DNA of 38,975 bases from a virus, in IMG/VR virus record IMGVR_UViG_3300003323_000385, positions 1 through 38,975 of that record, one strand, 5' to 3'. The notes under the pieces were generated by a model. It saw only the letters and a program-made list of their open reading frames with translations. It made no database searches and was not told the DNA's origin. Below, one piece after another: positions 1 through 38,975 of this stretch; within the stretch, counting starts at the first letter, position 1, and each line of letters opens with the position of its first letter. The position numbers and the translations under genes are program-made.

Positions 1-25
1 TTCGACCGGCAGGCCAACGAGTGGA
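1..25. repeat. Left copy of 25-bp end redundancy
   Basis: Bases 1-25 are identical to 38951-38975. The ssb reading frame continues across the junction, so this is most simply assembly overlap from a circular or circularly permuted genome, not a biological terminal repeat. Confidence 0.9.
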
Positions 26-435
26 AGGACGGCGAGGCCCTGTTTCTCCGAGGCTCCTGCTGGCGTGACTTCGCCGAGCACGTCGCCGGGTCGCTGACCA
101 AGGGCATGCGCGTCGTCGCGACCGGACGCCTGCGCCAGCGGAGCTATCAGGACCGCGAGGGGCAGACTCGGACGGCCATCGAGCTGGAGGTGGAGGAGAT
201 CGGGCCGAGCCTGCGCTACGCCACTGCCCAGGTCACCCGGGCCGCCTCGGGGGCCTCTGGCGGCGGCCAGCAGTCCCAGCAGCGCCCGCAGCAGCAGGTC
301 ACCGAGGAGCCCTGGGCCACTCCCGGCTCCGCGGCCCCTGACGCCTGGAACGCGCCGCAGAGCACCGCGCCGGTCGCTTCCGATGGGTCCTGGGCACCTG
401 GTGCGCACACCTACGGCGACGACACGCCGTTCTAG
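1..435 (+). CDS. ssb: Single-stranded DNA-binding protein, C-terminal part (gene spans window ends)
   Basis: SSB coats single-stranded DNA during replication and recombination and recruits partners through its C-terminal tip. The gene starts at 38834, runs through the right end and resumes in frame at base 1, giving about 183 residues when joined. This part holds the rest of the OB fold ([18 protein letters not shown], then [17 protein letters not shown]), a Gly/Gln/Pro-rich flexible linker and the acidic tip GDDTPF typical of bacterial and phage SSBs. It lies downstream of the exonuclease/RecT/origin block and upstream of a RusA-like resolvase, consistent with a replication-recombination module. 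Confidence 0.95.
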
Positions 436-689: not shown

Positions 690-1040
690 GTGCTGTCCTG
701 GGACGGCACGCCGCACCCCCAGGCCCGACCGCGGGTGACCCGGCACGGTACGTTCAAGCCGGACGCCGCCGACCAGCGCGAGCTGCGCGCGATCATCGCC
801 AGCCAGGTGCCTGACCCCTTGGAGGGTTCCCTGATCGTCGCCGCCGCGTTCTACCTTCCCGACCTGCGTACGCGCGACACCGACAACCTGATGAAGCACG
901 TCCTGGACTCGGCCAACACGGTCCTGTTCAAGGACGACCGCCAGGTGACCGCCCAGGTGGGCTACGTCGAGCTGGACCGAGAAAAGCCCCGCACCATCGT
1001 GATGGTCGGGGCTGACGTTCTCACCTCGGTGAGGCGCTAG
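690..1040 (+). CDS. RusA-like Holliday junction resolvase
   Basis: RusA-family nucleases cut four-way DNA junctions as dimers, resolving recombination and replication intermediates before packaging. The 116-residue size fits the family (about 120). The diagnostic acidic/Lys block is present: RDTDNLMKHVLD (residues 62-73) carries D63, D65 and K69, and KDDRQV (81-86) supplies the third acidic residue. The start is GTG 690; a G-rich Shine-Dalgarno precedes it inside a hairpin. The TAG stop (1038-1040) overlaps the stop of the convergent gene at 1037 in a shared CTAG. Confidence 0.88.
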   Translation: MLSWDGTPHPQARPRVTRHGTFKPDAADQRELRAIIASQVPDPLEGSLIVAAAFYLPDLRTRDTDNLMKHVLDSANTVLFKDDRQVTAQVGYVELDREKPRTIVMVGADVLTSVRR

Positions 1041-1231
1041 TCGTCGGAGCGCAGCGCGTCGCGGATGGTCGGCCGGGACACCTTGGCCTCGGCCTGCACC
1101 TCATCCCAGGTGCGTCCGTCCACGCGGACGCGCTGGCGGATCAGCTCGCGCTGGCGGGCGCGGTCGGTGGCCTGGGCGGCGTTGCGCTGCGCGATCCGCT
1201 GCGCGATCTTCTCCAGCTCGGTCATGGGCAT
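1037..1231 (-). CDS. Small HTH DNA-binding protein, leaderless start
   Basis: A 64-residue basic protein. Residues 30-60 (RQRVRVDGRTWDEVQAEAKV then SRPTIRDAL) read as a homeodomain-like helix-turn-helix with the recognition helix near the C-terminus. On the minus strand the start codon at 1231 follows TACACT (1243-1238) by six bases with no Shine-Dalgarno, the leaderless arrangement seen repeatedly in this genome. It is divergent from the operon starting at 1329, and the operator-like palindrome 1256-1271 lies between them, so it may regulate that region. Start could also be the second Met at 1225. Confidence 0.7.
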   Translation of the reverse strand: MPMTELEKIAQRIAQRNAAQATDRARQRELIRQRVRVDGRTWDEVQAEAKVSRPTIRDALRSDD

Positions 1232-1328: not shown

Positions 1329-2231
1329 ATGGCCCTGATCGCATACGAGGACTGGAACCCCTCGGAGAAATCCCGATCCATCATCCGACTGGCTAACGGC
1401 ATCTGTCGGGAGTACGCCGCCCAGGGTTACGACCTCACCCTGCGCCAGCTCTACTACCAGTTCGTGGCCCGGGGGTACATCCCGAACAACCAGCGGAGCT
1501 ACAAGAGCCTGGGGAACACCATCGACCGGGCGCGCAAGGCTGGGCTGATGGACTGGCGTTTCATCGTGGACCGCACCCGCAACCTGATGGGGTACACCAC
1601 GTACGAGGACCCCGCGGGCATCGTGGAGGCGATGGAGTCCGACTACCACGTGGACCTCTGGGAGGGTCAGGACTTCCGCGTGGAGGTCTGGGTGGAGAAG
1701 GAGGCCCTGGCGGGCGTCGTCGCTCGCGCCGCACTCTCTCGCGGCGTCGATTACTTCTCGTGCCGTGGCTACGTTTCCCAGAGTGAGCTGCACAGCGCTG
1801 CGCTCCGGCATCGTCGGTATGAGCGCGAGGGCCAGGACGTGGTGGTGGTTCACCTCGGCGACCACGACCCGAGCGGCATCGACATGACGCGCGACATCCA
1901 GGAGCGCCTGGCCCTGTTCGGCGCACACAGCGAGGTCCGGCGCATCGCACTGAACCGTGACCAGATCGACCTCTACAACCCGCCGCCGAACCCGGCCAAG
2001 CTCACCGACAGCCGTGCCAAGGGCTACATCATGGAGCACGGCAAGAGTTCCTGGGAGCTGGACGCGCTCGACCCCGACACGCTGGCCACCCTCATCACGG
2101 ACGAGATCGACCGGCACCAGGACGCGCATCTGTACGGCGCGCGGCTCAAGCTCCAGAACGAGGGTCGCGAGGAGCTGGCCAAGGTCGCCGAGAACTGGTC
2201 CGAGGTCGCCGACTTCCTCCGGGGTATCTGA
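1329..2231 (+). CDS. Stand-alone Spo11/topoisomerase VI-A-like protein (5Y-CAP winged helix plus Toprim)
   Basis: A 300-residue protein joining two parts characteristic of type IIB topoisomerase A subunits and Spo11. Residues 35-51 (DLTLRQLYYQFVARGY) match the winged-helix segment holding the catalytic tyrosine (Y42 or Y43). The Toprim domain follows: VEVWVEKEALAGVV with E123, then VVVHLGDHDPSGIDM with the DxD pair D178/D180 for magnesium. In topoisomerase VI the A subunit cleaves DNA through the tyrosine with help from a B-subunit ATPase; no B subunit is seen here. This architecture resembles, from memory, the orphan Mini-A group described in phages and mobile elements. It leads the early operon behind the 1256-1287 promoter with a good Shine-Dalgarno. 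Nuclease, nickase or recombination role is inferred. Confidence 0.75.
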   Translation: MALIAYEDWNPSEKSRSIIRLANGICREYAAQGYDLTLRQLYYQFVARGYIPNNQRSYKSLGNTIDRARKAGLMDWRFIVDRTRNLMGYTTYEDPAGIVEAMESDYHVDLWEGQDFRVEVWVEKEALAGVVARAALSRGVDYFSCRGYVSQSELHSAALRHRRYEREGQDVVVVHLGDHDPSGIDMTRDIQERLALFGAHSEVRRIALNRDQIDLYNPPPNPAKLTDSRAKGYIMEHGKSSWELDALDPDTLATLITDEIDRHQDAHLYGARLKLQNEGREELAKVAENWSEVADFLRGI

Positions 2232-33754: not shown

Positions 33755-34795
33755 ATGAAAAACCTCACCGTACTGGCTGACGGCACCGACGAGGCCGCCT
33801 GGCTCGCCGCTCGAATCCCGGTCATCACCGCCACGCAGGCGGCGGCCATCGCGGGCTCGCACCCGTACTACAAGCTGATCGATGTCTGGAACGAGAAGAC
33901 CGACCCGAACCACGACAGCGAGGCGAACCGGAACGCCTACCTGATGGCGCGCGCCGCGGTCGGCGCGGAGCGTGAGCCCGAGATCATCCGCTGGGCCACC
34001 GAGCTGCCGGAGACGGGCGGGGCGTCCGCGCCGTTCAAGCCGTCGCACGCGCTCGTCACCCGGCCCGAGCTGATCGAGGAGTTCCCCGAGCTGCCCCCGG
34101 CTGCGACGCCGGATGCGTGGAAGTCCGTCCGCGGCAAGCTCGTGCTGATGGAGGCGAAGACCACCCAGCAGGACTGGGAGAGCGACGGCCTCCCGCAGCA
34201 CATCTACGACCAGGTGCTCTGGCAGCGCTGGGTGACCGGCGCGGTGACTGTCTGGATCGCCGTCGAGCGCACCGAGTGGACCGGCCGCGGTGCCAACAAG
34301 GTGGCCACCATCGTGGCCCGCTCCATCCTCAAGGTCAGCGACGACGACCCCCAGCGCCTCGCGTTCCTCCAGGAGCGCGTCGCCGAGTTCCGCCAGATGG
34401 TCGCCGAGGGCATCGCGCCCGAGTCCGACGTGAACCTGTCGGAGCCCTCCGACTGGAACGAGGCCGAGGAGTTCGAGCGCATCGAGCAGGACCTGGACCG
34501 GCTGGCCGAGATCGAGGATGAGATCGCGGCCAAGGTCAAGGAGGCCGACGCGATCAAGAAGCGGATCAAGCCCATCGTCACGTCGTACGCCGGGCGTCGC
34601 ATCCACCTGATCGGCAAGCGCCGCATCGTCAAGCTCGTGCGCTCGTACGTGACCAAGCGGGACTTCTCCCAGGTGGACCCCGCCACCCTCCGCGCCATCA
34701 CCTCCTGGAGCGAGCAGGAGACGATGCGGGTCGAGCCGAACCCTGACTACATCCCGCCCGCCGAGCCGGTCGCGCCCGCGCCGGTTCAGGACTAA
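33755..34795 (+). CDS. YqaJ-family exonuclease (RecE/lambda Exo-like)
   Basis: A 346-residue nuclease of the PD-(D/E)xK class that degrades one strand from DNA ends to feed an annealing protein. The start IPVITATQAAAIAGSHPYYK followed by LIDVWNEKT matches the YqaJ N-terminus. GAEREPE (E72), D120 and LMEAK (E133, K135) form the metal/nuclease core, and QVLWQ (Q153) the final motif. Residues 235-275 form a coiled coil (EQDLDRLAEIEDEIAAKVKE). Shine-Dalgarno ccgaaagg precedes ATG 33755. RecT follows directly. Confidence 0.88.
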   Translation: MKNLTVLADGTDEAAWLAARIPVITATQAAAIAGSHPYYKLIDVWNEKTDPNHDSEANRNAYLMARAAVGAEREPEIIRWATELPETGGASAPFKPSHALVTRPELIEEFPELPPAATPDAWKSVRGKLVLMEAKTTQQDWESDGLPQHIYDQVLWQRWVTGAVTVWIAVERTEWTGRGANKVATIVARSILKVSDDDPQRLAFLQERVAEFRQMVAEGIAPESDVNLSEPSDWNEAEEFERIEQDLDRLAEIEDEIAAKVKEADAIKKRIKPIVTSYAGRRIHLIGKRRIVKLVRSYVTKRDFSQVDPATLRAITSWSEQETMRVEPNPDYIPPAEPVAPAPVQD

Positions 34796-34825: not shown

Positions 34826-36253
34826 GTGACCACCTCCGAACTTGAGCGGTACGAGTCCAGCAGCATGACCGACCGCATGGAATACGCGAAGATGATCGCC
34901 CAGGCCGACGACCTGGTGCCCAGCGGATTCCACGATCCCGTCATCCGCGAGATCAACGGCAACATGGTGAAGGTCGCCGGACAGGTCGGACCCGTGAACG
35001 CGGGGAAGGTTTTCCTGGCGTTCGAGTACGGCGCGATGCTCGGCCTCCACCCCCTCGCCGCCCTGATGGGCATTCACGTGATCGAGGGCAAGCCTGCGGC
35101 ATCCGCTGGCCTCATCTCGTCGCTCGTGCGCACGGCGGGCCACCGCCTCCGAGTCACCACCAAGGGCGACTGGGAGGATGGCACGTTCGAGGCCAAGGCC
35201 GAGCTGACCCGTGCCGACGATCCCGACTTCACCTTTACCGCCACCTGGACCAGGCGGGACGCCGAGCGCGCCAAGCTCCTCAGCAAGGACAACTGGGCGA
35301 AGTACCCCGCCAGCATGGCCAAGGCTCGCGCCATCACAGCGGTGGCTCGCGAGGGTGCCGAGGAGGCCCTGTTGGGCGTCCACTACACGCCCGAGGAGCT
35401 GGGCGCTGCCGTGGACTCCAACGGCGAGGTGATCGTGGTTCAGGAGGGCGAGGAGGGCGAGGAGGGCGCGGCCCCTGCCGTCGTGGTCGCCGACGAGGCG
35501 GACAAGCCCGCCCCCCGCAAGCGCGCCACCAACGGCCGCCAGGGCACCAAGCGCAAGACCTCCACGGCAGGCAGCACCACGTCGGTGCCGATGGATGCCC
35601 CGGAGACGCCGCAGGAGCCCGCCGAGGATGTCGTGGACGCCGAGGTGGTGGTGGAGCCCCAGGAGGACTCCGCGGAGGCCGCAGAGCGCGAGGAGCGCGC
35701 GCGCATCGCCGCCGAGCAGGAGGCGGCGGCGCGGGCGGCTGACGAGGCCGAGCCCGAGGTGACCCCGCAGGACCTGGCCAAGGTCGCCGCAGCTAAGGCC
35801 GCCGACGCCAAGCCGGGCGAGACGGAGGTGCAGTACCAGCAGCGCAAGCTACGCGAGCACCAGGCCCAGCAGCGCCCCTCGGGCGTCCCCGGCGTCCCGC
35901 TCGTCTCGGAGGGATATCCCGACCTCGCCACGGGCGTGGTGTACGAGACGGCCGACGAGCTGACCCAGGCCATCAAGGAGCGGGTGCAGGCCAAGCGCGC
36001 CGCTGAGCAGCAGCCCACCGAGGAGCCCGCGGGCGGCCCGTCGTGGGATGACGCGCCGGAGGAGCCGGGCGCTCCGACGCCGTACGAGCTGGCGCGCGAG
36101 GAGGAGCCCGAGAACTGGGAGCGCATGGCCAAGGCGTGCCGCACCCAGGCTGAGCTGCTGAACGTCTGGAACGACTCGGCCAAGGCTGGGAAGCGCGACG
36201 CCGAGCTGGCCAAGCTCATCATGGCCATCAAGCCCACCCTGCCCGAGCAGTGA
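34826..36253 (+). CDS. recT: RecT-like single-strand annealing protein with long acidic C-terminus
   Basis: A 475-residue protein starting at GTG 34826. Residues 1-200 match actinophage RecT proteins: AGKVFLAFEYGAMLGLHPLA, ALMGIHVIEGKPAASAGLIS, TWTRRDAERAKLL and PASMAKARAITAVAREGAEE. RecT anneals the 3' strands exposed by the upstream exonuclease. The rest (about 210-475) is an unusually long Glu/Ala/Pro-rich region with coiled-coil stretches and a conserved-looking end (NWERMAKACRTQAELLNVWN). This tail could bind SSB or the exonuclease, or keep the protein soluble; this is inference. Confidence 0.88.
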   Translation: MTTSELERYESSSMTDRMEYAKMIAQADDLVPSGFHDPVIREINGNMVKVAGQVGPVNAGKVFLAFEYGAMLGLHPLAALMGIHVIEGKPAASAGLISSLVRTAGHRLRVTTKGDWEDGTFEAKAELTRADDPDFTFTATWTRRDAERAKLLSKDNWAKYPASMAKARAITAVAREGAEEALLGVHYTPEELGAAVDSNGEVIVVQEGEEGEEGAAPAVVVADEADKPAPRKRATNGRQGTKRKTSTAGSTTSVPMDAPETPQEPAEDVVDAEVVVEPQEDSAEAAEREERARIAAEQEAAARAADEAEPEVTPQDLAKVAAAKAADAKPGETEVQYQQRKLREHQAQQRPSGVPGVPLVSEGYPDLATGVVYETADELTQAIKERVQAKRAAEQQPTEEPAGGPSWDDAPEEPGAPTPYELAREEEPENWERMAKACRTQAELLNVWNDSAKAGKRDAELAKLIMAIKPTLPEQ

Positions 36254-38690: not shown

Positions 38691-38837
38691 ATGGGCATCA
38701 AGCACGCCACCACCATCCACGAGCGCCACACGCCCCGCGGCGCGCGCATGATGAACGAGCACCGCCGCATCGGCGCTCGGTTCGCCCCGAGCGCTCGCGA
38801 GTGGTTCGCGATCCGCCGCGAGGAGCACGCTGCATGA
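38691..38837 (+). CDS. Tiny basic protein (48 aa)
   Basis: A 48-residue ORF from ATG 38691, with ggaggga just upstream (about 38677-38683): [20 protein letters not shown] then [20 protein letters not shown]. Rich in Arg and His. Its TGA overlaps the ssb ATG (ATGA), which supports it being translated. ATG 38683 overlapping the previous stop is out of frame. Function unknown. Confidence 0.55.
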
Positions 38838-38975
38838 CCGGGGAAACCGTCATCACGGTGGTGGGCAACCTCACCGCCGACCCGGAGCTGCGCTACACCC
38901 AGAGCGGCCTCCCGGTGGTGAACTTCACCATCGCGAGCACTCCCCGCACGTTCGACCGGCAGGCCAACGAGTGGA
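38834..38975 (+). CDS. ssb: Single-stranded DNA-binding protein, N-terminal part
   Basis: Begins at ATG 38834 overlapping the previous stop. [20 protein letters not shown] followed by [18 protein letters not shown] is the classic start of the SSB OB fold (GNLTxDPELRYTxSGxxVxxFTIA). The gene leaves the window and continues at base 1, in the same frame once the 25-base redundancy is removed. Confidence 0.95.
38951..38975. repeat. Right copy of 25-bp end redundancy
   Basis: Same 25 bases as 1-25. Removing one copy gives a circle of about 38,950 bp and restores a single intact ssb gene. Confidence 0.9.

Follow-up and report, generated by a model that had tools for sequence, protein, structure and literature searches.

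The Mini-A gene and its relatives

The window analysed here is an entire virus record, 38,975 bases long. An ORF with an ATG start at 1329-2231 on the + strand encodes a 300-aa protein that matches PHROG 6247 ('DNA topoisomerase') in a profile search (E 2.7e-102) and is a further member of Mini-A, a group already named in reviews and reportedly given that name by Takahashi et al. 2020. Using tblastn, 46.6 % identity over 92 % was found to the Mini-A of Pseudomonas phage NP1, which an excerpt of PMC7614492 gives as an example of the family. These two matches bear out the resemblance to Mini-A claimed in an initial annotation of this DNA, and the structure model described below also supports the gene call. 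A plasmid gene annotated 'Topo Mini-A/DNA topoisomerase VI' is 30 % identical over 76 %. A longer antisense ORF at 1290-2381 (363 aa) was rejected as the gene, because the + frame matches PHROG 6247 and because differences from three relatives over 160 codons are in excess at the third position of that frame (23/21/50, 21/21/53 and 22/22/55 by codon position).

Homologues were detected by tblastn in 75 of 50,697 phage records, each with <60 % identity, and in 38 of 72,556 plasmid records. Scans seeded with LGDHDPSG yielded 172 confirmed Mini-A stretches in genomes taken one per species and at least 584 in IMG/VR. The family is common, yet no Pfam or NCBIfam model matches the member found here.

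Some members have unusual features. In the Mini-A of Clavibacter phage 33 (L129), a segment of some 37 residues that includes the Toprim glutamate is present in tandem duplicate, which is either real or an assembly artefact. Three of 119 Mini-A genes contain a single in-frame stop (L016:6325, L026:3796 and L105:8490), for which decay, sequencing error or recoding are candidate explanations; intact copies exist elsewhere. A tRNA-like sequence lies immediately 5' of one Mini-A gene (L042, just upstream of 8001). The long N-terminal extensions of some Mini-A proteins look like start-site ambiguity, and a search of 80 viral loci for domain fusions that might give a clue to function revealed no clear case.

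The first and last 25 bases of the record (1-25 and 38951-38975) are identical, and an SSB gene recognized by a profile match spans the join, starting at 38834 and continuing with its 3' part at 1-435 (+). For these reasons the record is probably complete, representing a closed or permuted genome. The ends of a related record (G002) share a repeat of 123 bases.

Neighbouring genes and the search for a partner

A divergent gene at 1037-1231 (- strand), separated from Mini-A by a gap of 97 bases, encodes a 64-aa HTH-like protein (PHROG 686, E 4e-4) that is kept in three relatives (64-72 %). Between the two genes is the palindrome GTAGAGTCTCTAC (1281-1293), which is intact in two of these relatives (L001 and L003), has one change in the third (L002) and is possibly an operator or promoter element. 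No sigma-70 consensus promoter was found upstream of Mini-A. On the other side, an ORF at 2231-2635 (+, 134 aa) overlaps the Mini-A stop codon. The divergent gap and the overlapping ORF make it plausible that Mini-A heads an operon, as had been suggested. The further suggestion, that Mini-A and the putative winged-helix product of the overlapping ORF make up a two-protein machine, was not supported, because homologues of this ORF were found only in the three closest phages (L001-L003) and because clustering of the neighbourhoods of 120 loci revealed no constant Mini-A neighbour of any kind. The ORF has no Pfam, PHROG or NCBIfam match, and no relative was confirmed when it was used to scan viral sequences.

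Other genes in the window include those for a RusA-like resolvase at 690-1040 (+; PF05866, E 2.8e-14), a YqaJ-type exonuclease at 33755-34795 (+; profile match) and, among the matches listed, a RecT-like annealing protein at 34826-36253 (+; PHROG 561, E 8.6e-30). The gene set covers 54 of about 61 called genes, with the best 25 of 41 Pfam and the best 25 of 138 PHROG families. A viral scan with RecT confirmed nothing. The YqaJ, RecT, SSB, RusA, divergent HTH and Mini-A genes and the 2231-2635 ORF form a block common to this record and its three relatives. Among these four phages, Mini-A is 74-76 % identical, near the top of the full-length shared proteins, compared with 67-68 % for the terminase, 58-60 % for the portal and 65-68 % for the first part of SSB. 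Higher values are reached by a 132-aa protein (81 %, in a single relative) and by two further proteins that match over part of their length (80-83 %).

Elsewhere, the neighbours of Mini-A are genes for ThyX, ligase, Sak4, DNA polymerase and a Cas4-type exonuclease in named phages. In contigs from bacterial genomes they encode an SNF2 helicase, SSB, a DUF2800 nuclease and an Enc34-type ssDNA-binding protein. DNA metabolism genes recur beside Mini-A but a fixed partner does not. Mini-A was present in only three of 27 terminase-related records of at least 30 kb (this record included), and is therefore accessory. A link to recombination through co-occurrence with YqaJ was considered and dropped, as there was no enrichment: 12 of 66 Mini-A records carry YqaJ against seven of 24 terminase relatives that lack Mini-A, although the comparison is between groups of different phylogeny, and YqaJ represents one of several exonuclease types.

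The initial annotation noted the lack of an ATPase B subunit, and indeed neither HATPase_c nor HATPase_c_3 has a match in the 38,975-base record. Neither model exceeded the cut-off in any of 33 Mini-A records (this one included), nor did HATPase_c_3 in 48 additional ones (81 in all). Topo VI-B was found in one of the 48 host genomes or bins searched (of 50 selected among 80 genome loci), and the other 47 were without it. Thus, no recognized B subunit or constant partner accompanies Mini-A.

Two GHKL matches below the threshold were seen, one among the first 33 records (G014) and one, to HATPase_c_3, among the 48 further records (G247), and the proteins concerned are homologous (E 2.5e-122, 43 % identical). 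Both are examples of a phage protein of 483-488 aa that combines GHKL motifs with a C-terminal HExxH (also L029:7713-9161 and L179:1723-3186). It was found in 25 viral loci and in one phage record of 485 kb, and has no PHROG match. In four records (G014, G278, G279 and G247) its gene is on the same strand as Mini-A and no more than 2 kb away. As a B subunit for Mini-A, this protein is a lead only; just six of its 26 carrier records include Mini-A (the four within 2 kb among them), and three of the six, all three being among those four, were known before the scan.

Predicted domains and catalytic residues

The full-length protein was modelled with AlphaFold2 (pLDDT 88.1, pTM 0.75) from an alignment of 33 rows, which drew on 32 of 35 viral loci after exclusion of two with an in-frame stop (L016 and L026) and one that is cut off (L031). 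With the full-length model, the top Foldseek match was Topo VI-A (9o7o, E 2.5e-3) and nothing passed 0.001. A BFVD fold search returned a single match below 0.001, which has no name. The top 1000 Foldseek matches were then compared using VIA-align. For the predicted Toprim domain (residues 109-263; 1653-2117, +), the Topo VI-A structure 1d3y ranked first (Z 10.7, 140 residues, 2.8 A), and further matches were to MksG/JetD (8b7f, Z 10.7; 7til, Z 10.4) and Spo11 (8urq, Z 8.9).

Residues 1-105 were modelled separately (pLDDT 84.8) from 69 rows, made up of 68 loci and the Mini-A of this record. Foldseek gave no match below E 1 with this model. In VIA, residues 12-83 (1362-1577, +) were again closest to 1d3y_A (Z 7.7, 69 residues, 2.4 A), followed by the winged helix of KAT6A (Z 6.7). 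A Z score below 8 taken alone could mean a generic winged helix. However, the model superposes on residues 72-143 of 1d3y, which, if there is no net gap, puts Y43 on residue 103, which we take to be the catalytic tyrosine of the Methanocaldococcus jannaschii enzyme, and this register makes the match more specific to Topo VI-A. The N-terminal part is accordingly modelled as a 5Y-CAP-like winged helix with Topo VI-A as its best match. Structure prediction thus agrees with the Spo11/topoisomerase VI-A-like architecture that had been proposed, with both winged helix and Toprim present.

The segment LRQLYYQF (residues 38-45, including Y42 and Y43), E123 and D178/D180 were all found where the initial annotation had placed them in the 300-residue ORF. 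In an alignment of 119 sequences, which omits L031 and includes the fragments of L016, L026 and L105, residues Y42, Y43, E123, K124, D178, H179 and D180 are unchanged wherever the letter is present. In a second alignment, of this protein with those of 80 further viral loci, Y43 is present in 81/81 and Y42 is replaced by F in three. Y43, E123, D178 and D180 are each found in 118/118 or 119/119 of one set and 81/81 of the other, and no member with a change at R39, Y43, E123 or D178 was seen in any set. This constancy exceeds chance, although the invariance of D178 and D180 is partly by construction in the genome and second viral scans, which were seeded with LGDHDPSG; in the sets found by tblastn, where there was no such seed, D178 is present in 19/19 and D180 in 18/19. 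The exception, with DxN in place of DxD, is the Mini-A of Haloarcula virus HCIV-1 (L120:3989-5020). Plant SPO11-2 likewise carries DxN (PMC11302465).

Both tyrosines of the pair had been put forward as the catalytic segment. This segment is present and conserved, but the two positions differ. In divergent members Y42 is replaced by H (BKO1-3), A (phi38:2), or W or F (plasmids), and Y43 is kept. As Y42 varies whereas Y43 is invariant in three alignments, the nucleophile is most likely Y43 (1455-1457, +; 118/118, 81/81 and 19/19) and not Y42. This agrees with SPO11, in which the nucleophile is Y138, the second of a tandem pair whose first position is F in yeast (PMC11922746). R39 (1443-1445, +; 117/117 and 81/81) precedes Y43 by four residues, as does the clasp residue R102 the catalytic position Y106 in Methanosarcina mazei Top6A. 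The Toprim acidic residues are E123 (1695-1697, +; 119/119) and D178-H179-D180 (1860-1868, +; 118/118), the latter aligning with the DxDPxG of Topo VI-A. When 19 Mini-A proteins were aligned jointly with nine of 17 bacterial Topo VI-A sequences, RxxxY, the Toprim E and DxDPxG coincided unguided. A proposed equivalence of motif IV (WELDAL) to E342 of Top6A was dropped, since the two do not align there.

Relationships seen by sequence comparison are more distant. TP6A_N (PF04406) does not match the Mini-A protein, although the same model found matches in 29 of 140 genomes elsewhere. In hhalign, Mini-A was linked to Topo VI-A weakly, with probabilities of 11.6 % and 6 % (E 0.0026 and 0.006, respectively), and PDB sequence searches with the Mini-A protein gave nothing credible. 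The link to Topo VI-A therefore rests on structure and on the order of the motifs. The tyrosine in a winged helix together with the Toprim E and DxD nevertheless identify Mini-A, by its motifs, as a member of the Spo11/Topo VI-A superfamily.

Proposed activity and comparison with known enzymes

The initial annotation considered the role of Mini-A to be unsettled, and an excerpt of PMC8084294 likewise gives its function as unknown. According to part of PMC8185306, no archaeal Mini-A has been characterized, and Thermococcus kodakarensis transcribes one (PMC8643681). No report of Mini-A activity was found in the open-licence literature, to which the search was confined (subscription papers were outside its scope).

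We consider it probable that Mini-A is a B-independent 5'-tyrosyl DNA transesterase serving phage DNA metabolism and most like SPO11. It would be an enzyme of the Topo VI-A/Spo11 type pared down to a winged helix and a Toprim domain. Most likely, two copies would meet on DNA as a dimer; E123, D178 and D180 of one copy would bind metal, and Y43 of the other would attack the backbone, leaving the protein joined to what is presumably the 5' end. Cleavage would need neither ATP nor a B subunit, and the phage may use the break in replication, repair or recombination of its own DNA. Topo VI requires both of its subunits (PMC12203943). SPO11 cuts DNA without partners in vitro after dimerizing on it, and remains covalently attached (PMC11922746). 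Because SPO11 cuts alone, we predict that Mini-A also cuts via Y43 without a partner. B-independent cleavage is favoured because the residues of SPO11 are kept, the parts of Top6A that couple it to ATP are absent and the latch loop seems to be absent. The weak sequence links to Topo VI-A, the weak Foldseek scores, the YqaJ counts, which do not favour recombination, and the two-subunit requirement of Topo VI argue against it. The main use of the finding is a sharp prediction about Y43. If it is true, Spo11 chemistry independent of a B subunit is widespread outside eukaryotes.

A more specific form of this proposal, which we regard as rather doubtful, is that Mini-A is the stand-alone prokaryotic counterpart of meiotic Spo11, with which phages and plasmids make programmed, protein-capped double-strand breaks without ATP, and so start recombination or recombination-dependent replication of their own genomes. 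Also rather doubtful is an ATP-independent relaxing enzyme that nicks or cuts, releases supercoils and reseals, and so relaxes replicating phage DNA. The annotation of PHROG 6247 is in keeping with this, one Topo VIII has been reported to relax DNA without ATP (PMC7614492) and SPO11 is able to reseal nicks, yielding topoisomers (PMC11922746). However, there is no strand-passage ATPase, and the latch loop of Top6A, which is required for relaxation (PMC13040014), appears to be missing from Mini-A; residues 6-84 of the model cover M. mazei 38-145, where there are 29 more residues, around 44-67 (Z 5.3).

That Mini-A is one part of a two-part enzyme, completed by a GHKL ATPase from the host or from elsewhere on the phage, is improbable. 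The GHKL/HExxH protein encoded close by in four records would suit such a role, but most of its carriers lack Mini-A, and neither the 81 Mini-A records nor, with one exception, the 48 host genomes searched supplied a recognized ATPase subunit. Least probable is a hydrolytic nuclease like JetD/MksG that makes no use of Y43 and, for example, degrades host or rival DNA; the Toprim domains of MksG and JetD match Mini-A about as well as that of Topo VI-A, but Y43 is invariant, the clustering found no constant neighbour and MksG has, in an excerpt of PMC10123090, no tyrosine candidate within its 5Y-CAP-like domain.

The proposed B-independent transesterase can be set against known systems. Mini-A resembles Topo VI-A in how its two domains fold and in having RxxxY, DxDPxG and the Toprim E; it differs in that it has no B subunit, a shorter N-terminus, probably no latch loop and no TP6A_N match. 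With Spo11, Mini-A shares the winged helix and Toprim, tandem tyrosines of which the second is catalytic (in Mini-A, most likely so), and possibly action without ATP. Unlike Spo11, it has no Top6BL-like partner that could be found and no sequence match detectable in PDB searches. JetD/MksG have a similar Toprim domain (Z 10.4-10.7), but are without the 5Y-CAP tyrosine and are part of SMC-type systems. Topo VIII itself carries the ATPase part, whereas none was found for the Mini-A of this record. Nonetheless, reviews place Mini-A close to Topo VIII (PMC8185306 and PMC8084294, in part). The closest comparison is with known Mini-A proteins, those of NP1, HCIV-1 and the archaeal plasmid P-7H_11, which are alike in size, domains and catalytic motifs and, as here, are carried by viruses or plasmids. 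No difference from them was seen at the level of the enzyme; the gene lies in a separate phage lineage, and the ORF that overlaps it is specific to that lineage.
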